Positions 16,422-51,790 of a DNA stretch of 64,000 nucleotides are shown piece by piece (positions within the stretch are counted from its first letter, which is position 1; the number at the start of each line of letters is the position of its first letter). Below the pieces are notes generated by a model. That model was not told the origin of the DNA. It made no database searches and worked only from the letters and a program-made list of their open reading frames with translations. The position numbers and the translations under genes were made by a program. Source of the stretch: Apoderus coryli (Eukaryota > Arthropoda > Insecta > Coleoptera > Attelabidae); contig OU452199.1 of NCBI GenBank assembly GCA_911728435.2, forward strand, positions 3,916,860 through 3,980,859, written 5' to 3'.

Positions 16422-18600
16422 CTGTTGCTCTCGAGGCACGAATAACTCTCCATATTTAAGTGTAAAGTAATAATTTTATGACCTTTTTGTCATTTATCTA
16501 AAATTTATAAATATTTTTTTTGTTTTAGACATCAGCTATTTTTTAGCTCTCCATATCATATATGTAATATATGTATATATGGAGACTATTAGTTTCATGG
16601 AAAAATTTTTTTTTTAATTTCACCAGAAATACTTGTTTTTGGTCATTTTATACATAAATAAGTAGTTTTAAAAAAATGTCTGTCTGTCTGTCTGTCTGTA
16701 TCCACTAAAACGCAAAAACCGCTTAACAAATTTTAACCAAATTTGGTACAAAAATACTATTGGACATGGCAAGGAGCTGATTAGATTTTGGGAAACATTG
16801 AGCGTAGGCAAGGGGTTTAAAAGAGGGTTCAAAAATTAAAAAAATTCATAGTTCTTAAACTTATCCGAAATACTGCATAATTTTTTACGCATTTAATTGA
16901 ATATAACCTAAAATATTGAACATAAAATATTAGACCACATTGGCGTGCGAAAATAGTGTAAAATGGGGTAAAAAAGATTAAAAAAAAAAGTATTTCTTAA
17001 AAATAGCAGAAATATTAACTAGTTATTTATAGTTTTGATAGAATAGAACCTATAAAATGTGTCATGAATAACTTACTTTCATAGGCGTTCGTAAATAGTG
17101 GAAAAGGGGTCAAAACATAAAAAATATATATTTCCTAAACTTATTCGAAATATGGAATAATTTTTCATAGTTGTGATACAATATAACCTAAAAAATGCAG
17201 CATAAAATTTTTATTTACATAGGCGTTCGTAAATAGTAAAAAAAGGGGTAAAATAAAAAAAATTAAAATGTAAAAAATTTTATATTTAACTAGTTGAATT
17301 GGTGTTAAAAATACACGACAAAAATTAATGTACCATAGGCGTCCGTGAAAATTCTATAAAAGGGTCAGAAAAAATTTGTATCCGTGATAACTCAAAAACA
17401 ATTTAACGGATTTTAACCACATTTGGTACGAAAATACTACAGGATATTTATAGGTGGTGATGAACATTGAGCGTAGGCAAGAGGTTTAAAAGAGGGTTCA
17501 AAAATTTAAAAAATCATAGTTCCTAAACTTATCCGAAATATTGAATAATTTTTTATAGTTGTGATAGAATATAACCTAAAAAATGTTACATAAAAGAATT
17601 AGTTCACACAGGCGTTCGAAAATAGTCTTAAAAAAGGGTCAAAAACGAAAAAAAAATGTTTCCCAAATATACCAGAAAAATTGGCTAATTATATATAGCT
17701 TTCATATAAGATAACCTAAAAAATGCAGCATAAAATTTTTATTTACATAGGCGTTCGTAAATAGTAAAAAAAGGGGTAAAATAAAAAAAAAAATAAAATG
17801 TAAAAAATTTTATATTTAACTAGTTCAATTGTTGTTAAAAATACACGACAAAAATTAATGTTCCATAGGCGTCCGTGAAAATTCTATAAAAGGGTCAGAA
17901 AAAAATTGTATCCGTGATAACTCAAAAACCACTTAACGGATACCCTACAACATGCAGCATAACAATTTTGTTTACATAGGCGTTCGTAAGTAGTAGAAAA
18001 GGGGGCAAAATAAATTTTATAATAAAACTAAAAAAAATCAATTAATTTGCATTCAAGAACTTTTCCTAGATCTGAAATATAAAATATCTGCGTATAAATA
18101 GTGCCTCCAAAGAGAAGAAAAAGGCACAAAACCCGATACTTAAAAAAAAAAATAGCTGATGTCTAAAACAAAACAAAAATTTATAAAATTTAGATAAATG
18201 ACAAAAAGGTCATAAAATTATTACTTTTACACTTAAATATGGAGAGCTATTCGTGCCTCGAGGGCAACAGCTAGTTTCGAATGTCAATGTGGTGTAATTG
18301 TTTATGTTTAATATTTTAGGTTATATTTAATTAAACGCACAAAAATTTATTCAATATTTCGGATAAGTTTAAGAACTATGATTTGATTTTTGAACCCTCT
18401 TTTAAACCCCTTGCCTACGCTCAATGTTTCCCAAAATCTAATCAGCTCTTTGCTCTTTGTACCAAATTGGGTTAAAATCTGTTGAGTGGATTTGCGTTTT
18501 CGTGCATACAGACAGACAGACAGAAAGACAGACGGATTTTTAAAACTACTTATTTATGTATAAAATGACCAAAAACAAGTATTTCCGGTGAAATTAAAAA
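16422..18600. repeat. Complex repeat with crossing inverted pairs and tandem blocks
   Basis: Pair A: 16422-16512 is the inverted copy of 18181-18270 (core CGAGGCACGAATAACTCTCC). Pair B: 16610-16697 is the inverted copy of 18508-18597 and carries a GTCT/AGAC microsatellite. Their order is A, B, A', B', so the pairs cross rather than nest. Between them the block AGGCGTTCGTAAATAGT recurs at about 17083, 17221, 17748 and 17978, and 17195-17420 repeats at 17723-17945 with a 528-bp offset. GTCT microsatellites occur in INE-1/Helentron-type elements, a possible but unproven relation. Confidence 0.75.
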
Positions 18601-19838: not shown

Positions 19839-21489
19839 GTTTAGTACCCATTGAACCCCCCAAGTTTTTATTACGTACGCCGATGACTTTTAAACTAAGT
19901 TTTTATAGGTTACTATGTATGTTTGATTATTTTTTAACTCTTATAAAATTTCGATCAAATCATTTGTTTTTGAGATATTTTGAAAAGTATTGGCCCTTGT
20001 GGTCTACGCGGCTCACGGTATTTTCACTACTAAATCAATCATATTTAATTCAAATTACCATTACCGTGAATCAAATGAAGTACAGTTTTCAAAAAGGTAA
20101 TAACTAAAGATGAAATTGTTTATTATTTTGAACTTAATTTGAAGCATCATTGTCAAATATTAATTATTTAAACATATTATTTTAAAAACTTGAAAATGTA
20201 ACTAAATAAACATTAGAAAAACTACCAGTCTAAAGAAATTGCTCGATATGACCCCCATTTTTTTCAATGCATATGCGAGCTCTTTTTAGTAAAGAAAATC
20301 TTAGTCTTTGGAAAAATATGAGGCTTCCACCTAAAGTCTTCCCCAGCTTGTAAGATTATATCTATTACCTAAATGATTTTCACTCAAAATCGGATCCTTA
20401 TAAACAAAATCTTTCATACTACCTGGGACTGAATAGTCCAAGGCAGTAAGATCTGGAGATCAGGGTGGACATTAAACAGGAGCATCTTGGCCTCGCCCAA
20501 TCCAGCGTTGGGGAAAGTTTCCATGTAAGTATCTCCTTACATTCCTAGCAAAATCTGCTGGTGCACCATCAAGTTGAAACCAAATGTTTTGTCTGATCAA
20601 GAGAGGCAAATCGTCAAGTAAATCGGGTAGTATGTTTTGAAGAAATGCTAAAAATGATTCACCAGTCAAATTCCCTGGTAAAATTACAGGACCCAAAAAG
20701 AAATTATCCACGACACCAATCCACACGTTGACTTTAAAGTTTATACTTGATGATGTGTCTCTACTACGGCATGAGGATTTTATTCTGCACAGATATGTGT
20801 ATTATGAATATTTGTGACCCCGTTTCTAGTAAAGGTAGCTTCGTCCGTAAACAAAATATTTTTGATGAAGTTTATATCTCTGTCATCATGCATTTCGCAT
20901 ATCCACCTACATAGTCTAGATCTCAGCTCAAAGTCTTGAGGCAGCAGAGATTGTACTTCTTGAATGTGGTAGGGGTAAAGCTGCTGTCTTTTTAAAATCT
21001 GGTGTACTTCAGATTTCCCAATGTTTTCAACATGTCGGACAAGAACTCTGGTACTAATATTTAGTGTCTCCTCGATGCTTGTTAAAATACTCTCCTCTTT
21101 TTCGGGTTGAATTATACGGGGTCGACCGCAGTTCCCTCTACGCTCTTCCCTAAAACTTCCACTGCGCCTTAGTCGCTTAACCAAATTTGAAAAATACCTT
21201 CGTTTTGGATGAATTCCTAGCGGCTAAACTAGCGTTAGAGTTACATTTTCCTATTAAATAAACAAAAATACAATTTTACTGATTATAATCAATCAAATGT
21301 CTTTATATCAGAGCTGCCAAGGCATCAAACAAGAGCCAATACTTTTCAAAATATCTCAAAAACAAATGATTTGATCGAAATCTTATAAGAGTTAAAAAAT
21401 AATCAAAAATACATAGTAACCTACAGAAACTTAGTTTAAAAGTCATTGGCGTACGTAGTAAAAACTTGGGGGGTCAATGGGTACTGAAC
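19839..21489 (-). mobile_element. Mariner/Tc1-superfamily transposon with about 165-bp inverted ends
   Basis: The left arm 19839-20007 (GTTTAGTACCCATTGAACCC) is the inverted copy of 21325-21489. The body encodes a broken DDE transposase on the minus strand. The ends differ from those of the 38.4 kb element although the transposases belong to related groups. A target duplication could not be read with certainty. Confidence 0.78.
20330..21184 (-). pseudogene. Broken DDE transposase of the 19.8-21.5 kb element
   Basis: From 21184 the frame reads a DNA-binding part (GNCGRPRIIQPEKEESIL; VGQILK-like VHQILKRQQLYPYH) and the first catalytic block LFTDEATFTRNG. Stops and a frameshift occur at about 20730-20790. 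The next frame continues with VNVWIGVVDNFFLGP, the second block IWFQLDGAPADFARNV, and RWIGRG. After a further stop the third block SPDLTALDY is seen near 20440. All three catalytic aspartates survive, but the frame is broken at least three times. The type is the insect ITm group with QLDGAP and SPDL-x-x-LD motifs. Confidence 0.82.
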
Positions 21490-22130
21490 ATCCCGTATTT
21501 TGGCTATTAAGAAATTGTTTTTTGTGTTGTTTTTTGGAAAGAAGTAGCTCTTTATGCTGAAGCAACACACTAAACTTCAATCCAATATCTCAATAAATAC
21601 TAGAATTATTTAAAAATATTGGTTTTAAATTTTCAACTTTGACGCCTTGTATATCGAACATGGAGAGCTAAAATGAAAAATTAAATATTAAAACTCATAT
21701 TATTTTTGCACAAGGAATCTGTGGTTAACGGATTTACCTCCTTTTTCCGGACACCCTGTATAACAACCAACACAACGATCTGTTTTACTTTGTATGTTAT
21801 TTGGTTATAATATAAATTTTGAGAGATAATAAAGCCGATAATCATGCCAGTCAGAGATAGAGGCAGTTATAACACGTGCTCAATCAGCTGACACTTGCAT
21901 CTGCTGCCTTCATCGACCACAGACTCCGTGTGTGGTGTAATTAGCTATATTACAAGGGCTATTTATATGTATACGTACATTTTTTTTAAATAACACCCTA
22001 TACAGTATAAACAAATGAAAATAATTTCGTGGCAAAGCGGACTAAAATGTTGGTTTCACCTACACAAGGAATTTTGTTTAATTTAGCAGGGCCCCAGTCT
22101 AATTCAATAGAACCAGACCGAGGCATGGGT
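21490..22130. other. No gene seen
   Basis: Contains CACCCTGTA at 21752 and an ACACCCTATACAG variant near 22003, probably ends of decayed small elements. Confidence 0.4.
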
Positions 22131-22190
22131 CGACAGATACTGACGAATTCGTTTCGCTCTTGTTATGAGCTCGTCAGAGTACCATAGTCG
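22131..22190 (-). ncRNA. Hammerhead ribozyme
   Basis: Read on the minus strand from 22190: stem I CGAC-TAT-GGTACT, core CTGACGA, stem II GCTC-ATAACAA-GAGC, core GAAA, stem III ACG-AATT-CGT (sharing the last A of GAAA), cleavage base C at 22142, then AGTATC-T-GTCG closing stem I. GGTACT pairs with AGTATC (six pairs, one G-U), and CGAC with GTCG beyond an internal loop. Every conserved core base is present (CUGANGA, GAAA, U before the C). Self-cleavage after C22142 is predicted from the known fold, not shown. Such ribozymes often belong to Penelope-like elements or retrozymes; no such coding region is seen nearby. Confidence 0.8.
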
Positions 22191-22801
22191 TTGCCCATCT
22201 ACAAATATCAGCCTGCATTTAAGCACAATAGGATACACAACAGTAGACACATGTAAACACGTATCATCTACATGTACATAGTAATGCATATCCTATACCA
22301 TGCAGAGGCCGAAAAAACTCAATGTATAGGTAAAACCAGTCGTATAAATAGAAATAAATATAAATTATTTTCATTTATTATATTTACGGACATGAAATCC
22401 TTTTAATTAAGTATAAACAAAACTTCACAAATGGAAATCGTTCAATTGAACAAATGATTTCTTGCGATTTCCAAGCAAAAATAAAAAAAAAATTGTATCA
22501 TATCTGTTATTACGTAAAAAAAAAGATATTACTGTGCATGTATATTATTTCAAATAGCAAATAATATTCTTCTGCCCGCCTTCTCTCTTCTTTAGTGATG
22601 ACGAAAATCGTCGTTTTGTTGGACGTCGATTGCACACAACTTTAGCTATACGTTTTCTCTCCAAATTACAGTGATTAAGCATGCTGTTGCAAATACATGA
22701 ACAGAACAACAAGTACGTATATAGGGTGATTTAAATGAGAAAACAAGCAAAAAGACGTTGACGATTTCTGGACAATACACTATTGTTTGTCCGATGGAGC
22801 C
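22191..22801. other. No gene seen
   Basis: Unique-looking AT-rich sequence between the ribozyme and the 3' tail of the next LINE. Confidence 0.35.
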
Positions 22802-23769: not shown

Positions 23770-25640
23770 CTATGAATTGCCCAGCTGTCCCACACTTTTC
23801 ATAAAGTTTATGATTTCTCTGGGGGCTAAATTCCTTGCCTCGTCGGGTATTAGGGTCACCCCTCCAAGGTGTGTGCATTTAGCCAATTTTGACGGTCTGC
23901 AATGACCACTTCAAATGGGATTTCAAAATCATGTTTGCGTGGCAAGGCGTCCGACGGTTTTCTTCTTGAATCCAAAGGTATTAGATTCAGGATTCCTATG
24001 TGTCCCTCTAGATCGCCAGATTTGTATTCCATTACCTGTACCAGTTTCAGAGCGCTAATTGCTGCCTCTTTTTTGACTAGGACAGGCAAAGGTATTAGAT
24101 GCAGCAACGTTTCCATCGCTGCTGTGGGGCAAGCTCGCATTGCCCCTGTTATTCCTAAACATGCAAACCGTTGCAACTTTTGAAGACGGCATTGTATATG
24201 CTTAATATTAACTTTTGGCCACCATACTAATGAGGCGTATGTGACCATGGGTTTAATGACTGTTTGGTACACCCAGTATGTGAGCTTTGGCTTTAGCAGC
24301 CAAGTCCTACCGAGTAGCCTATGACACGTCCATATGGCCGCTGTGGCTTTCGATATGGTTTTCTCTATATGCTGATTCCAGATTAGTCGTTTATCCAGGA
24401 TTACTCCCAGGTAATGACTTTATCTATATCTTTATGAGTGACTTTATCCGAAAGGCAAATTTGCTCACCGCTGAGAGTGGGGTTAATAATGTCCACCTTT
24501 CTCTTTCTCGTGAATGGTACCAACACTGTTTTTTTCGGATTTATATTCAATCCCTCAGCGTCGCACCAGTTTTTAATTTTGTTTAATGCAATTTGCATGC
24601 GGTTGGATATAACCGATGTGTGTTTTCCCTTAACTGTGAGAACAATGTCGTCGGCGTAGCTTTGCAAAGTAAAGCCTGCCCTATTCATTTTTGAAATGAG
24701 ATGATCCAGCACTAGTGACCATAGAAGAGGGGACAGTACACCGCCTTGTGGGCATCCCCTAGCCGCTGTCACTGTTACAGACACTTCTCCTATTTCAGCC
24801 GTAATGACACGGTCTTTCAAAATTGCCTGAATCCATTTCACCAGTGAGGAGTCGACACTCCTCTCTTCTAGTGCTCTACTGATGGATTCATGTGAGGTAA
24901 TGTCAAAAGCACCCTCTATATCAATAAAGGCACATAAGGATACTTCTTTTGCCTTAAATGACTTCTCGATGTCTTTTACTAAGCAGTGCAAGGCATTAAT
25001 TGTAGATTTTCCCGCTTGGTAGGCGAATTGCCTTTTGTGAAGCGGTTTCCTATTTAAAGTTTCATTTCTTAGGTATTCGTCTATTATCTTTTCCATAGCT
25101 TTCAGTAGGAAGGAGGTTAGACTAATAGGCCTGTAGGACTTAGGGTCATCCTCTGTGGCGTCCTGTTTTCGGTATAAAGGCTACTCTAGTTTCCCTCCAA
25201 GCTTTGGGAATATGGCCGAGGATAAGGCTTGCTTTGAACAGTCTTTGCAACGATGGTTGCAGTATTTCCAGACCTTTCTGGAGGAGGGCCGGAAAAATTC
25301 GGTCCATACCTGGTGATTTGAAAGGCTGGAAACTGTTTATCGCCCATTCTATGCGATTTTTTGTGAATATTTTCCCCGCAAGTTTTTTACCAGAGGGGTT
25401 GGGTCTATATGGTACCCTTGCCGTTCCGGTAGCTGCTGGAGTTCGTTCACAGATTCGCGACCCTGGAAAGTGAGTTTGTAATAAGACTCTAAGACTTTTC
25501 GACCGATCATTAGTAAATTGGACATTTGGATCTTTGAGTAATCCTATGCCATTGGAGTGATCCTTCGATAGGACTTTCTGCAGTCGCTGTGCGATATAAG
25601 GATGGAAACTAGGCCGGGATTCACTAGAGATGCTATGCTA
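23770..25640 (-). pseudogene. R1/LOA-like LINE, RNase H deleted
   Basis: Reading from 25640: LLKDPNVQFTNDRSKSLRV and LLQTHFPGS, then FQPFKSPGMDRIFPALLQKG. A frameshift near 25170 leads to the palm (QFAYQAGKSTINALH; CAFIDIEGAFDIT; AARGCPQGGVLSPLLW; LQSYADDIVLTV with the catalytic aspartates). Another frameshift near 24400 leads to the thumb (WTCHRLLGRTWLLKPK; VIKPMVTYASLVWWPK). The text then jumps from NWLNAHTLEG straight to LIPDEARNLAPREIINFMKS, the end that normally follows RNase H. The RNase H domain is therefore missing. At least three frame breaks make it inactive. Confidence 0.8.
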
Positions 25641-28566: not shown

Positions 28567-30244
28567 CACAAGTGGGTACCGACAAAATTAAATGTTGCAG
28601 ACGAAGCTACGAGATGGAATATAAAAGAAATTGACAAACGCGACATCGTTTCAGAGGAATAGTTTTCTGGACCTAAGTTTTTAAAATTAGAAAAAGAATT
28701 TTGGCCAAAAGAAGAACGTGAGGATTTTAATCAATACGAAATAGACGAAATGAAATCATGTCAAAAATTAGAAAGAGTATGTCTAGTCGTAGAATTTAAA
28801 GATATTTTACCTGAAATTAGAAGATTTTCGAAATATATGAAATTACTGAGAAGCACAGCATGGTGTCTAAGGTTTATTAAAAAATTGAAGAAAGATAATT
28901 ATGAAACGTCGAAATATTTATCTCTACAAGAAGTCCAGGAAGCTGAAGATGTGTGGATTAAGCAGTCTCAGCGAGAAAGTTTCGGCAAAGAGCTACAATG
29001 TTTAAAAACTGGAGAATTCATAACCAAAAAATCAAAGTTAATTGCCTTGTCTGAACTTCAAGAAGGAATAATTGTACTAAGTGGAAGAACAAAGCTAGCA
29101 ACATCCATGGTAGAAAGTGCGAAATCTCCTGCAATTTTAGACCCGAAACATGAATTTACGAAACTTCTCTTGCAATTTTATCATGAAAAGTATAATCACC
29201 AAGGTGTGGAACTAATTTTGAACGAGATCAGACAGAAGTTTTGGATACTTAAAGGTCGAGCAGCTGTCAAAGATGCAAAAATGAGAAAGTGAAGCCGACA
29301 GCACCACTGATGGGACTACTTCCCGAATGTAGACTGCAGAGACAGCACAAGCCATTTGTTGACCTAGGAATGGATTACTTTGGACCTATAAATGTTGCAA
29401 TAGGACGAAGAAAAAAAAACGATGGGGTGTTCTGTTTACGTGTTTATCAGTGCGTGCAATTCATCTCGAGATAGCACACAGTCTTAATACCAATTCAGCA
29501 ATCATGGCGATCGAAAGAATGACAGCTAGACGAGGTAATGCGAGAAGAATTTTCTGTGACAACTGGACCAACTTTGTAGGTGCAGCTAAAGAACTAAAGT
29601 TGGCAATAGATGAGATGAAGAAAAGTGGAATAGAAAATGATTTAAATGTCACAGGAATTGAATTTAAATTTAACCCTCCAGGTGCACCTCACATGGAAGG
29701 TGTTTGGGAAAGACTCATACAGTCCGTAAAACGTATTATTGGAAAAATCCTACATGATCAGTCCTTAAAAGAAGAAACGTTACTTACTCTATTTGCTGAA
29801 GCTGAGAACTTAGTTAATTCGAGGCCTATAACGAAAGTTTCACTTGATCCAAATGATCCTGAAGCGTTAACACCCAACCATTTCTTATTGGGATCATCAA
29901 ACGGTGAAGGTTTGCCAATATCAACTGCAACGGCGAATAATTTAAGATCAGAGTGGGGCAAATGTAGGCTCTTAAGCGATATGTTCTGGAAAAGATGGAT
30001 TCGTGAGTATCTTCCCACACTGAATAAGAGGAACAAATGGACAATAGATCAAGCACCGTTGAAAATTGGTGATATTGTAGTGTTAGTTGACGATAACTGT
30101 CCAAGATATAAATGGAAGATGGGAAAAATATCTGCCTTGTATCCTGGTCCCGATCAAAGAATACGTGTTGTCGATGTTACTACGATGAACAACACCTATC
30201 GAAGACCAGTCAATCGTTTATGTAAATTAGAAGTTGACGAATGA
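28567..30244 (+). pseudogene. BEL/Pao retrotransposon, 3' half of pol
   Basis: Enters in the RNase H end (WVPTKLNVADEATRW), followed by the integrase zinc-binding region (FYHEKYNHQGVELILNEIRQ) and, after frame breaks near 29290 and 29450, the integrase core. DLGMDYFGP carries the first catalytic aspartate, IFCDNWTNFVGA the second and MEGVWERLIQS the glutamate. The end of the protein (RYKWKMGKISALYPG; RVVDVTT) stops at 30244. Gag, protease and reverse transcriptase are absent. Integrase would insert DNA copies of the element; here the frame is broken twice. Confidence 0.85.
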
Positions 30245-33278: not shown

Positions 33279-33538
33279 GGTTATTGATCTTACGAATGAT
33301 GGACATTAATTTATAACTCCTGTACGTTAAAACGATGTTACCAGGTTGTTAATGTTACGAACGATGAAGATTAGTTTATGTCTCCAATACGTAAAACCGA
33401 TGTTAGCTGGTTATTAATGTTACGAACGATGAACATTAATCTATGACTTTTGTACATTAAACCGATGTCTGAAGGTTATTAATGTTACGAACGAGAAACA
33501 TGAATCTATGACTTTTGTACGTTAAACCAATGTTAGCT
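33279..33538. repeat. Four tandem copies of a 65-bp repeat
   Basis: Units at 33279-33343, 33344-33408, 33409-33473 and 33474-33538, each exactly 65 bp, starting GGTTATTAATGTTACGAACG. The first unit is the most diverged and units 3 and 4 the closest. A decayed piece continues to about 33640. Non-coding; probably a minisatellite within a larger element. Confidence 0.88.
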
Positions 33539-33889
33539 GATTATTACATTGGGTTATAATAATTGTTTTACGTAATTGTGTTCGCCGGAAATTATTATTA
33601 CGAAAGATTGAGATTATTGTTCTGTATTCAATCAATAATCGCGAGCATATAGGTACATATGTATTATGTGTACTGCAAAGTGCAGTATGGTTCAAATATA
33701 CTAGTACCAATGGTTAGAGAATTTAAAAGCCCAAATAAGACTCAAAATTATCTTGCTGTACGTTCATTGATTTGATGCACCTGCTTTGTAAATAAATTAA
33801 ATCATATTTGTACGACACTCGAAATCTAAAGGCTTTATTTTTAATTTAGTTAATATTAAATGCTAAACATGTCAGATTCGTCTGTCGTC

Positions 33890-38433: not shown

Positions 38434-41241
38434 CAGGGTGTCCTACGCTGGCAACCCATTAGATTATTTCAGAAACTACTTCGAATTGAATTTTACTCAA
38501 ATAATATAATAGCAACGGCATAGCACTTCCGGTTATACCGGAAGCTGATGGCAACTTTGTTATTTTAAATGGAACACCCTATAAATTATTACATTTTTGG
38601 ATTCTAAATAAGATTTCAGACATATTTCATGTATCATGTCCTATACCTAACGTCAGTCGTTTTTGTCTTATATCAAGATTTATGTCAAAATTGACAGTTT
38701 AGGGCTCCATAAGAATTCCGGTTTTTCCTTGTAAATCAGTATTTAATAATTATTTTGCAGGTATTTTCTTATTAGGTGGGATCTTCTTTTTCGAATTGAC
38801 AAGACATTTTCTGATTAGTTTATACAGGATAGTCAAAAAATTATATTGAAAACGGTTCAAGAAATACAGTTGAAAGTCAATTTTTTCAAATAGAATGGGT
38901 ATATTATTATTATTTTATCTTCCTTAGCATTAAAAAATAATGCAATTTTGTAATAGGTTATCATTTTCTAAAATGCATAGTTTTCGAAATATCGTCATTT
39001 TAAATTTTTCTGCAGCGCCTACCGTTGTCTCTCTGGAAGATAGCTAATTAATTTAGTTAGCCATGAAAATAATGGCATTTCTCTGAATTAGCATAAACGT
39101 CAAACTAAATATGAAATTAGTTGTTGCTATTTATCAATATTTGTGACCATTATATTTTACAATAACTATTACAAAATGGAAAATATTTATTCATATATGC
39201 TGATATTGTAAATGTGTTATTAATCCATGGAGAATGAGTGTAACAAAGTGATTAATAGAACCTGTAGAGTTTTTAACGAGAGAAACCCGCATTTGCCAAC
39301 AATGACTAGAGAAAAATTAAGAAGAATTTTGAGAAATCAAATACGGTGGGGGCAGTGTCATGCAAATCGAGTACTACAAAAACCTGTAACTACAAATGAG
39401 GATAATGTGGTAAATGTTTTGGCATATTTTAATACATATCCTGAATCATCAGTGCGTGCTGCTGAACAAGATCTATGAATTTCTAAATCCTCTGTCCAAA
39501 AAATATTAAAAAGTAGTGGTTTACATCCATTTAAATTCAAATATCTTTGTGCTCTGGAAGCAGGTGATGCCGAACGACGTGTACGGTTCTGCGAAACCAT
39601 TTTAACACGAACGCAAGAAGATCCTGGGTTTCTGCAAAAAGTGATTTGGACAGCTGAGTCGAAATTTTCGAGACATGGAATCTTTAATAGACAAAATAGT
39701 CATTTTTGGGCTTCTGAGAATCCGCACGCTATTCGTGAACGAAATTTTCAAAATAAATGTAGTGTGAACGTTTTTTGTATGGTGAAAGACAGACATGTTG
39801 AATATTTTATTTACGAGCATAATTTAAATACGGAAGGTTATCTTTATATTTTGCAAAATGTTGTGGCGCATTTTTTGGATGATCTACCATTAAATGAATT
39901 AAGAAGTTGTTGGTACCAGTTAGATGGAGCACCACCTCACTGTGGAAATAGAATCACACAACAGCTTAATGAAATGTTTGAACATCGATGGATCAATCGT
40001 TTAGGGCCTTGGGATTGGCCAGCGAGATCTCCAGATCTATCACCGCTGGATTTTTATGTTTGGGGTGCAATTAAATGTATTCCAACCCAATTCCAAAGAA
40101 GAATTAGTTGGACGCATCCGAACTTCATTCGAAGCCTTACCTGGAGTCCAAATTGCACGAGCTGTCAAGAGAAAATTTATTGAACGGGTAAATAAGTGTT
40201 TAAGACTAAATGGGGGTCGTATCGAACAATTAAATTAGTTTTGTTATCGTTAGTTGATTAACTTTTTTTAGTTGAGAATTTATTTAGTTTAATCTTCTGT
40301 TCATTTCTGCTGTATTATTTTAAATTTTAGTCTTAGTTCGTTGTAATACTTGATTTGTATACCTCCCAACCTGCTCTAAATGATTTCTCAAAATTCTTCC
40401 TAATTTCTCTAGTCATCGTTAGCAAATGGGGGTTTCTCTCGTTAAATACTCTACAGGTGATATTAATCACTTTATTTTATTCTCCATGAATTAATAATAA
40501 ATTTATAATATCAATAAGTATTTTTCATTTTTATTAATTTGACGTTTAGTTTGACGTTAAAATGGCAATAATTTCTTGGCTAACTAAATTAATTAGCTAG
40601 CTTCCAGAGAGACAACGGTAGGCGCTGCAGAAAAATTTAAAATAACGATATTTCAAAAACTATGCATTCTAGAAAATGATAACCTATTACAAAATTGCAT
40701 TATTTTTTAATGCTAAGGAAGACAAAATAATAATAATATACCCATTCCATTTGAAAAAATTGACTTCCAACTGTTTTTCTTGAACCGTTTTCAATATAAT
40801 TTTTTGACTACCCTGTATAAACTAACCAGAAAATGTCTTGCCAATTCGAAAAAGAAGATCCCACCTGATAAGAAAATACCTGCAAAATAATTATTAAATA
40901 CTGATTTACAAGGAAAAAACGGAATTCTTATGGAACCCTAAACTGTCAATTTTGACATAAATCTTGATATAAGTCAAAAACGACTAACGTTATGTATAGG
41001 ACATGATACATGAAATATGTCTGAAATTTTATTTAAAATCCAAAAATGTAATAATATATAGGGTGTTCTATTTAAAATAACAAAGTTGCCATCAACTTCC
41101 GGTATAATCGGAAGTGTTATGCCATTGCTGTTATATTATTTGAGTAGAGCATATTTGACAATATAGACACTGAAATTTTCAAAATTCAATTCGAAGTAGT
41201 TTCTGAAATAATCTAATGGCTTGCCACCGTAGGACACCCTG
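38434..41241 (+). mobile_element. Mariner-superfamily transposon with about 0.9 kb inverted arms
   Basis: The element starts CAGGGTGTCCTACGCTGGCA and ends with the inverse; TA lies outside both ends (38432-38433 and 41242-41243). The left arm (38434 to about 39355) and right arm (about 40365 to 41241) are inverted copies with only scattered differences. The left arm runs through the transposase start codon into roughly the first 43 codons, so the beginning of the gene is present twice. The transposase lies between. Total length 2808 bp. Confidence 0.88.
39227..40238 (+). pseudogene. Near-intact DDE transposase with a lost catalytic aspartate
   Basis: The N-terminal helix-turn-helix part (RVFNERNPHLPTMTREKLRR; SSVRAAEQDL) is followed by an in-frame TGA at 39476-39478, then continues ISKSSVQKILKSSGLHPFKF. 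The block that should read TDE reads VIWTAESKFSRHG, so the first catalytic aspartate is alanine. The second, WYQLDGAPPHCGN, and third, RSPDLSPLDFYVWG, are kept. A frameshift near 40080 moves the last 50 codons (KEELVGRIRTSFEALPGVQI) to the next frame. One stop, one frameshift and one active-site change make it inactive. Related in type to the transposase at 20.3-21.2 kb. Confidence 0.87.
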
Positions 41242-50199: not shown

Positions 50200-51790
50200 G
50201 TATGTATGTATGTATTTGCTCTTCTTTATTGGCCGCAGCTACCAGGGCTATTTGGCCAGGGGTGATTGAACACCTTTATACTCGTTCGGATAACACAAGG
50301 GGTGAGTCCCAAACCGCCACAAAACCTTGAAAGATAAGAAGATCCAATTTAACCTTTACTTATTCATATACCCACACCAGAAGCACAAACCCACTCTAAA
50401 GTCTCAAATTACATGCTATCAAAAAGCGACCTACGAATTCAACTACTCTAGGCGAAAGCAATTCATGCACTACAAAACCCAACCAAAGTGGCGCCACCAA
50501 GTTCTTGATACAACTCTTTACTTTGAGCAACATACTGTGGACATTCGAAAAAAATATGTTGTAAAGTTTCTTCTTCACCACATTCACAAAGCGCACTGTC
50601 CCTCACATGAATCTTATTCAAATGTTTTCCCGATAAACAATGATTAGGTACTCCTCATACGGCACAGTGTAACTAAATCTTTTCTGTTATTATTATAGCT
50701 TCTAAACCATACCCTTCTATATGGTTTCTCCACCATAGCAACATAGTTCACACCCTTAGTTCGTCCAGCCGACCTCCATTCTTCGCTCCACCCAACCCAA
50801 ACGCTGTCCTGGAGTACTCCCAGGAGGTCCATATACGGTATCAAATACTCAGCTAATTCTTGCTTTTCTCGTCCTCTATTCGCCAATTGATCGGCAATCT
50901 CATTGCCTTTAATTCCACAGTGAGAGGGAACCCATGATAATGTTATTATTATTCTGTTTTCCCTTTTCTCAGCATTCAATTTTTTAGTTTCCAAAGTTAT
51001 CCTGTCCATTTTCCCATGTAATCCTATTTTTTTCAGTTTCATAAGAGCAGCTCTCGAGTCGGAGAATATACTATATTTTCCAGGTTCTGAACAACACATT
51101 TCTACTGCTCTTTTAATAGCAATAATTTCAGCTGTACATATTGAAAAATAATCCGGAACTCTTTCTGCTATGGAGATATTTCTCTGTGGGCAAAAAATCC
51201 CTATCCCCACTTGGTTGCGTTCTTTTTTAGACCCGTCAGTAAAAATTTCTACGTGGTTTTCCCAATGTTCTGCCACATATCTTCTAAATTCTACAGCAGA
51301 GGTCTCATCTTTGGATAATTGGGATAGGAAAACTGGTATGGTAAAGTACTGCAACTCATATGCATAATCATAACAAGGCATAGAAACATCCTGTATCATT
51401 TTGCCAAAATAGGCAGAACAAGAATCGAATGCGTCCAATAGAGGAGGACTGCTCCCTCTATTCCAATAACTAAAATTTTCATTAAAACTTATATATAATT
51501 TTTGTGTAAATTCTCTGACAAAATTATTATGAGAAGAAAATGATTTCATTATGAACTTCTCCGCTAACCAGATTCTCCTATATCTCAAGGACATTTCCGC
51601 GGCCTCAGACAGAATGATATTGGTCGGCGTAGATATCATTAAACCCAAGCATAAGCGAAGGGCCTTGTACTGAATCCTATCAAGTTTGATGAGATTAGTT
51701 TTGGCGCATCTGCCCAAAACAATACTTCCATAATCCAGATGCGACCGGACATATAAAATAAATTACAAATTCTAAAAAATACCACTGTAC
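50200..51790 (-). mobile_element. 5'-truncated LINE of the I/LOA kind
   Basis: The minus strand ends in a TATG-type tandem tail at 50197-50217 (plus strand TGTATGTATGTATGTAT). Coding text begins at about 51790 (YVRSHLDYGSIVLGR) and includes the RNase H frame described next. After a frameshift near 50650 a C-terminal zinc-binding stretch is read (ALCECGEEETLQHIFFECPQ). The reverse transcriptase is missing. Confidence 0.8.
50644..51717 (-). pseudogene. LINE RNase H frame, 357 codons without a break
   Basis: From 51717 the frame reads the end of the thumb (KLDRIQYKALRLCLGLMIST; LSEAAEMSLRYRRIW), then a full RNase H: EIFTDGSKKERNQVGIGIF, ICTAEIIAIKRAV, YSIFSDSRAAL and ITLSWVPSHCGIKGNEIADQ. The four catalytic acids (D in FTDGS, E in TAEI, D in SDSR, D in EIAD) are all present. 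RNase H removes RNA from the RNA-DNA hybrid during retrotransposition. This is the longest uninterrupted frame in the window, which suggests a fairly recent insertion, but without the polymerase it cannot act alone. Confidence 0.85.

Follow-up and report, generated by a model that had tools for sequence, protein, structure and literature searches.

A type I hammerhead ribozyme in a noncoding, retrozyme-like repeat of the beetle Apoderus coryli, probably copied by the machinery of Penelope-like elements

A short minus-strand segment of the 64-kb stretch of Apoderus coryli DNA analyzed here (the window) has the form of a hammerhead ribozyme, which raises the questions of whether the resemblance is genuine and what kind of element carries and copies it. 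The answer reached, which is regarded as probable, is that the segment holds the type I hammerhead belonging to an abundant, noncoding, 524-bp retrozyme-like retroelement copied by the machinery of Penelope-like elements (PLEs). The earlier note on this DNA had placed all invariant core bases and three stems on the minus strand and the predicted cleavage at position 22142, and it was right in each respect (core bases by sequence, stems by sequence and structure, cleavage position by descriptor and structure). Two features came in addition: a further 5-bp helix (AUGGG/CCCAU) extends stem I, and the 10 nt of stem-loop III form a perfect palindrome. Read from 22198 to 22125, the minus-strand order is AUGGG-CAA-CGAC-UAU-GGUACU-CUGACGA-GCUC-AUAACAA-GAGC-GAA-ACG-AAUU-CGU-C-AGUAUC-U-GUCG-A-CCCAU, and the parts are as follows:

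22125..22198, minus strand: type I hammerhead ribozyme, including the extended stem I (sequence, Rfam comparison, descriptor, structure)
22178..22198, minus strand: 5' strand of stem I, AUGGG at 22198-22194, CGAC at 22190-22187, and GGUACU at 22183-22178, with internal loops CAA and UAU (sequence, structure)
22184..22186, minus strand: internal loop UAU of stem I, opposite the lone U at 22135 (sequence)
22171..22177, minus strand: catalytic core CUGACGA (sequence, descriptor)
22156..22170, minus strand: stem II GCUC/GAGC (22170-22167 / 22159-22156) with loop AUAACAA (sequence, structure)
22155-22153, minus strand: core GAA (sequence)
22143..22152, minus strand: palindromic stem-loop III, ACGAAUUCGU (ACG-AAUU-CGU) (sequence)
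22141..22142, minus strand: predicted cleavage site, between C17 (22142) and 22141 (descriptor and structure)
22125..22141, minus strand: 3' strand of stem I, AGUAUC at 22141-22136, GUCG at 22134-22131, and CCCAU at 22129-22125, with single-base bulges U and A (sequence, structure)

Sequence, descriptor, and structure agree on the type I arrangement, with the invariant core CUGANGA...GAA...UH, three stems, and an open stem I. By analogy with other hammerheads, the UAU loop of stem I is presumed to be the place of the loop I-loop II contact. Palindromic stem-loops III are known for repeat-type hammerheads, and in an Aedes example stem-loop III would allow two molecules to form a 10-bp stem together (Perreault et al., PMC3088659).

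The chance of such a structure was assessed with a hammerhead descriptor covering the three types on both strands. It gave a single match in the 64-kb window; a second ribozyme or tandem copy was looked for inside the window and none was found. In 60 random sequences of 128 kb with the dinucleotide frequencies of the window, there were 6 loose matches in total, and 1 with stems I, II, and III of at least 6, 4, and 3 bp, respectively (outer helices uncounted). When the core was fixed and its own flanks were shuffled, a stem I of at least 6 bp together with a stem III of at least 3 bp arose in 108 of 20,000 trials. Among the matches listed from IMG/VR, 120 of 122 usable occurrences of the core plus stem II completed a hammerhead by a rule of our own (4 of the 126 listed were omitted, their flank being too short), compared with 68 of 2,440 shuffled flanks. 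The 126 same-stem-II occurrences listed in IMG/VR viral contigs L001-L120, which are rich in such hammerheads, comprised 81 type I and 43 type III forms, also by our own rule, and four contigs (L002, L041, L043, and L046) had such a hammerhead twice. The IMG/VR pattern that included the palindromic stem III gave 2 matches, which were chance-like by eye and were set aside.

No window match reached the Rfam gathering threshold. The best model was Hammerhead_HH9 (RF02275), at 20.1 bits vs a cut-off of 52, with an E value of 0.0066 on 160 nt and of 2.6 over the whole window. This model, an amniote intronic hammerhead, has a stem II near-identical to that of the window ribozyme (GAGCUC...GAGC); the window ribozyme, by contrast, belongs to a repeat element. 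The cut-off below which the window ribozyme falls is a curated database threshold and no structural definition. The earlier note had stated that the call should be dropped if no significant covariance hit was obtained; strictly, that is the result over the whole window (E 2.6), and it is outweighed by the genomic family described below. The ViennaRNA model, which leaves tertiary contacts out, favored a non-hammerhead fold for the isolated piece (-25.6 vs -20.4 kcal/mol for the hammerhead).

Copies were sought in the 428-Mb assembly of the same species. The pattern of core plus stem II had 1,890 matches (961 + 929), and the reversed pattern had 0. In the matches printed, the core and loop II were mostly identical, with some variants; among the copies listed, ATAATAA or other variants of loop II occur besides ATAACAA, which suggests several subfamilies. 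A DNA search with 21960-22420 gave 134 matches from the best 40 of 1,372 candidates, of which 54 (the window counted) were at least 330 bp long at 90-100% identity; the copies examined, a few percent diverged, are young. Dimeric copies, which had been suggested beforehand, were found in the genome search together with longer tandems. The tandem unit is 524 bp (524-525 bp, some neighbors at 515) with a GC content of 39% and one hammerhead, for which the cut is predicted after unit position 224. Arrays can be long, and in one of them seven copies on the minus strand precede five on the plus strand in 525-bp steps. A single unit folded as a circle reached -159.1 vs -120.2 ± 6.0 for shuffled sequences, and 0 of 60 shuffles were as stable.

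Substitutions were rarer in the ribozyme (18 of 3,006, 0.60%) than in the rest of the repeat (208 of 15,368, 1.35%), counted without the 16 bases adjoining the ribozyme on each side (Fisher p 2.7e-4, the test taking related copies as independent). In about 60 copies, the free core position 7 was changed in 3, an invariant core base was changed in 4, and part of the core was missing in 1. The call of a canonical type I hammerhead on the minus strand at 22125-22198 is confirmed as far as sequence goes, because the genome holds 1,890 pattern matches vs 0 for the reversed pattern and because the ribozyme has fewer substitutions than the rest of the repeat. It is quite improbable that the hammerhead of the window copy, or of the whole family, is an inactive look-alike that persists through nothing but copying: this would agree with the weak Rfam score (20.1 bits), the misfold as minimum-energy structure, the broken core in 5 of about 60 copies, and the insertions showing no trace of cleaved ends, but the core bases of the window copy are all intact, 25 of 60 full 82-nt ribozyme blocks are identical to the commonest form, and the ribozyme has the lower substitution rate.

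A role in an intron or host gene was also considered and set aside. In twenty window frames Pfam identified no host gene, the matches being only to reverse transcriptase, RNase H, integrase-type, and DDE/HTH domains, and such a role is made superfluous by the high copy number of the ribozyme. The domain matches, which are read as remains of retroelements and transposons, are RVT_1 at 24404-25180 (minus strand), RNase H at 50647-51762 (minus strand), and, below threshold, Integrase_H2C2 and DUF5641 at 28663-30241 (plus strand), HTH_32 at 20783-21223 (minus strand), and DDE_3 at 39479-40180 (plus strand). The transposon content gives an arthropod-like impression. The window also has tandem repeats at 16937-17263, 17535-17793, and 33279-33546, whose periods are 138-140 bp and 65 bp.

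A search of the genome with RF00163 (best 73 of 52,198 candidates) gave four loci, none of them that of the window ribozyme, on which this search therefore has no bearing. The four belong to a second hammerhead family, and two of them are over the cut-off. This family has the form CACCACTGATGAGTC...GACGAAACGGCCGTCTGGTG and was found at L123:1538 (minus strand), L124:1507 (plus strand), L125:1507 (plus strand), and L126:1538 (minus strand), with L125 differing upstream of the core. At L123 the hammerhead lies within a 335-bp near-palindrome, which may be a head-to-head element.

The window copy was aligned to the 524-bp unit, which divided it as follows:

22004..22015, no strand: left target-site duplication (TSD) AGTATAAACAAA (12 bp), exact direct repeat with 22410-22421
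22016..22365, minus strand: left arm, from unit ~350 (end A, outer) to unit 1 (inner), by alignment to the 524-bp unit
22362..22409, plus strand: right arm, from unit 339 (inner) to unit ~386 (end B, outer, ~35-bp tail), by alignment to the unit
22410..22421, no strand: right TSD AGTATAAACAAA (12 bp), exact repeat of 22004-22015

Positions 22010-22365 match unit 1-356 at 97.5% identity, the alignment extending 6 bp into the duplication, and 22362-22408 match unit 339-385 at 95.7%; the right arm shares 4 bp with the left arm. At 394 bp (22016-22409), the insertion in the window is small but complete.

Insertions of the family were compared in a sample of 40 clusters from 38 loci, which were the best-scoring copies rather than random ones. 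Duplicates of one insertion were left out of the 38 loci, and clusters whose matched pieces summed to less than 150 bp, as well as short distant end pieces, were omitted from the counts. Ends were classed as A (unit 345-365, ~350) or B (unit 374-405, ~385), which are about 35 nt apart; a '34-bp extension' is known for Penelope. Two outward-facing inverted arms were present in 28 of the 40 clusters, and 25 of these 28 paired A with B (12 A/B and 13 B/A), the other 3 having another end; no A/A or B/B insertion was seen among the 28. In a set of 58 loci with 110 arms, 20 of which were added loci hand-picked from the upper part of 150 matches and not random, 91 of 105 arm 3' ends were at A (40) or B (51), with arms shorter than 40 bp and arm ends at the locus edge omitted. 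Opposite-strand neighbors less than 2 kb apart, among 100 listed of the 1,890 copies, were in the order '-+' in 13 of 13 cases. The inner junctions were variable, the shortest arms held only part of a unit and the longest several units in tandem, and copies with a single arm differed in their 5' ends. The 5' ends of single-arm copies cluster near unit 484-522, possibly at a transcription start, but this is given no weight because the first set was chosen for covering unit 1-356.

A DNA transposon or MITE with a hammerhead by chance in its terminal inverted repeats would also have inverted ends and target duplications, and the window copy taken by itself resembles a 394-bp inverted-end element. 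This explanation is nevertheless given hardly any probability: one end is always 35 bp longer than the other, according to the A/B rule, the freely variable inner junctions largely refute it, and the arms extend from part of a unit to several tandem units, with single-arm copies whose 5' ends vary.

TSDs of at least 11 bp were found in 21 of the 40 clusters, compared with 3 of 1,029 random pseudo-elements, and by hand tally in 20 of the 25 A/B insertions, 5 being without one. Their length was 12-13 bp in 16 of 21, and their GC content was 19% vs 32% nearby. The 12 clusters of the 40 that had no inverted arm, only 1 of which had a TSD of at least 11 bp, count against copying by PLE machinery. 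Ends A and B lie at a 12-bp stem-loop (unit ~318-375), A being in the loop and B ~10 nt past the foot; its stability has a z of -2.34, and 4 of 200 shuffles were equally stable.

LINEs also give inversions and duplications of such size, and in twin priming the inverted arm ends outward at an internal position that varies. Movement of the element by LINE machinery (target-primed reverse transcription with twin priming) instead of PLEs could draw on this and on the LINE-type reverse transcriptase frame (RVT_1) in the window. It is considered highly improbable: in 25 of 28 inverted clusters the outer ends are constant, one at A and the other at B, unlike in twin priming, the ends shown in the unit alignments have no poly(A) 3' end, and the TSDs concentrate at 12-13 bp.

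Copying by PLE machinery is favored by what is known of these elements. A purified Penelope-like protein from Anolis (PAc) cleaves the two DNA strands where the target is AT-rich and begins reverse transcription at two internal sites next to each other, explaining the optional 30-40 bp genomic tail; the PLE hammerhead, situated near the start of the ORF and upstream of the reverse transcription start sites, was dispensable for insertion in vitro (Frangieh et al., PMC11167929). The Penelope families of Adineta vaga have inverted pseudo-LTRs (pLTRs), partial tandems, and TSDs, with a 31-bp tail optional on one inverted repeat (PMC3846280). The hammerheads of PLEs are described as minimal, without helix III or loop contacts (PMC7761336). 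The copies of the unit bear the same insertion signature, with inverted arms and an alternative 30-40 bp tail (25 of 28 A/B) and TSDs (20 of 25).

PLEs are present in the same genome. GIY-YIG matches were scored for 150 of 1,260 candidates, and many were in minus/plus pairs with long frames; head-to-head PLEs are found, for example, around C14:14850229/14853032 and C16:15722695/15726036. At one locus (L183, 2623-7400, C5), RVT_1 and GIY-YIG lie in a 774-aa frame, which has a head-to-head partner frame of 718 aa. This PLE has a 13-bp TSD, ~30 bp extra at one end, and a hammerhead-like core, and by eye it sits in a BEL-like element. It was the only PLE insertion read to both ends, and its architecture matches that of the insertions of the retrozyme-like unit. 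Its 3'-end region folds no better than shuffled sequences, and no counterpart to the A/B stem-loop of the unit was found there. The unit had no BLAST match at E 0.1 in the other eight GIY-YIG loci compared (L175-L182); in L183 the best match (E 0.009) covered 25 bp and lay outside the PLE, so that none of the nine loci (L175-L183) matched the unit within its PLE part.

Look-alikes of the minimal PLE-type hammerhead, for example CACTCTGAGGATGATC...GATCGAAACGTTAGTG, were noted by eye at L125:2550 (minus strand), L125:2986 (plus strand), L176:2262 (plus strand), and L179:2429 (plus strand), the two at L125 forming an inverted pair. At L155:1678-2288, a copy of the element lies inside a PLE-related hairpin, beside the hammerhead-like core of that PLE. 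The flank was suggestive of a chimera of element and PLE, which was rejected in favor of an insertion into the PLE-related hairpin with a 9-bp repeat (GCTAACATT).

Coding capacity was examined in the region after the ribozyme, and no open frame longer than 133 aa was found in the best 150 of 4,495 candidate copies. A 47-codon frame runs from the ribozyme to end B; its first 34 codons had 42 non-synonymous and 15 synonymous variants, 5 stop variants, and 7 gap events, which is close to the neutral N:S expectation of 2.85. The frame was considered as the start of a PLE ORF and ruled out by this near-neutral variation and by the 133-aa limit in the 150 copies. The upstream flanks of 17 single-arm or irregular copies had no mutual BLAST match at E 1e-4 (low-complexity filter on). 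No PLE-type ORF, with a telomerase-like reverse transcriptase and, canonically, a GIY-YIG nuclease, was found in the 150 copies, and the 17 flanks were unrelated to each other.

These results bear on a further reading, by which the unit is a pseudo-LTR or internal-deletion derivative of a particular PLE family, the hammerhead is that PLE's own, and there is no separate retrozyme. Such an origin would account for the insertion architecture common to the unit and PLEs, for the 47-codon frame leading from the ribozyme up to end B, and for the order of parts, the PLE hammerhead preceding the reverse transcription starts and lying close to where the ORF begins (PMC11167929). It is thought unlikely, since the 150 scored copies have no ORF (133 aa at most), the first 34 of the 47 codons vary like neutral DNA, the 17 upstream flanks do not match each other at E 1e-4 with the low-complexity filter on, the unit is unmatched in the PLE parts of nine GIY-YIG loci, and its hammerhead is canonical whereas those of PLEs are described as minimal (PMC7761336).

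The element carrying the ribozyme is confirmed as non-autonomous. Retrozymes are noncoding by definition. The earlier note had proposed that the ribozyme marks a nonautonomous element and had contrasted it with PLEs and retrozymes, no coding region of either being visible; the first part stands, and the contrast falls, both by that definition and by the PLE-type ends, inverted arms, and target duplications.

Read from the DNA itself are the hammerhead, the tandems, the outward inverted arms, the fixed ends A and B, the variable inner junctions, and the AT-rich TSDs; copying of the noncoding element by PLE machinery could link them as follows. Tandem transcripts would cleave themselves at the hammerhead into 524-nt RNAs, possibly circularised, as in other animal retrozymes (PMC7229834). 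A PLE protein would bind the stem-loop at unit ~318-375, and its GIY-YIG nuclease would make a staggered cut of about 12 nt in AT-rich DNA. Each DNA 3' end would prime reverse transcription at one of the neighboring sites, one strand using A, in the loop, and the other strand B. Reverse transcription would run back across a single unit or several, and joining of both cDNAs would yield a head-to-head insertion. The template would be circular or uncleaved multimeric RNA, because the insertions are without a footprint of cleaved ends: at unit 215-240 there were 6 arm 5' ends out of 109, vs 5.4 expected, and 1 of 105 arm 3' ends was at unit 215-235. The lack of such a footprint also counts against the preferred reading, in which a part for the ribozyme in copying is presumed.

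More specifically, and only tentatively, it is proposed that a noncoding and probably circular ribozyme RNA parasitises PLEs by mimicking their site of reverse transcription start, one strand priming at A and the other at B. If this is true, a complete insertion always consists of two arms placed head to head, one with the tail and the other without it, and the strict A/B pairing (25 of 25 with both ends classified) would reveal an obligatory two-strand PLE integration on a single RNA. The strict rule of one tailed and one tail-less end is also a clue to how two strands are joined in PLE integration. The machinery that inserts animal retrozymes is left open in the literature, with LINEs or PLEs among the options, and PLEs are called a strong candidate on account of common hammerheads, tandem copies, and co-existence (PMC7229834). 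The role of PLEs has so far only been guessed, and here their mark is read in retrozyme-like insertions themselves; no report of such a mark for retrozymes was found in the open-access literature searched (subscription journals and preprints were outside the scope of the search). The genome holds 1,890 core matches and also many GIY-YIG frames, of which some are long and open, and this makes it directly testable which enzyme goes with the RNA template.

Among known systems, PLEs resemble the unit in having two adjacent internal reverse transcription starts (30-40 bp tail), inverted arms, partial tandems, target duplications, AT-rich targets, and a hammerhead upstream of the reverse transcription start (PMC11167929, PMC3846280). 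Unlike PLEs, the copies of the unit examined have no ORF for reverse transcriptase and GIY-YIG; the hammerhead is not of the minimal PLE form but canonical, with a full stem I, loops, and palindromic stem-loop III; and the TSDs are mostly 12-13 bp, compared with 8-10 bp in the quoted A. vaga cases.

Several hammerhead repeats of other animals are also comparable. The pDo500 satellite of Dolichopoda cave crickets is likewise an arthropod hammerhead repeat of ~500 bp in which the ribozyme is more conserved than the rest; unlike the unit, it is a satellite making up ~5% of the genome of one species, and no insertion ends are given for it in the relevant parts of PMC2837043. The hammerheads of Aedes aegypti, likened here by description, are insect interspersed repeats with a palindromic stem-loop III; an Aedes RNA was among four tested RNAs without cleavage, and dimers were possibly needed (PMC3088659). 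For the hammerhead W-elements of Schistosoma, possible TSDs are described, and no PLE link is drawn in the relevant parts of PMC8490949.

The metazoan non-LTR retrozymes (Cervera and de la Pena 2020, PMC7229834) have a canonical type I hammerhead, are noncoding and present in many copies, and form tandem units with a GC content below 50%, TSDs longer than 4 bp, a very stable predicted RNA fold, and, as demonstrated for other animal retrozymes, circular RNA. The unit has the corresponding properties, being a noncoding, tandem, multicopy repeat with a type I hammerhead, a GC content of 39%, TSDs longer than 4 bp, and an RNA predicted to be highly self-paired (0 of 60 shuffled circles as stable). 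At 524-525 bp, it exceeds the reported range of retrozymes (about 150-450 bp, with RNAs of 170-400 nt), and its head-to-head insertions with two alternative 3' ends have no equivalent in the pertinent sections of PMC7229834. The element is not called a PLE because the ORF was not found, and it is not called a textbook retrozyme because its unit is longer and its arms are inverted. Because the size criterion is a reported range and no mechanism, it is classed as a variant of animal retrozymes.
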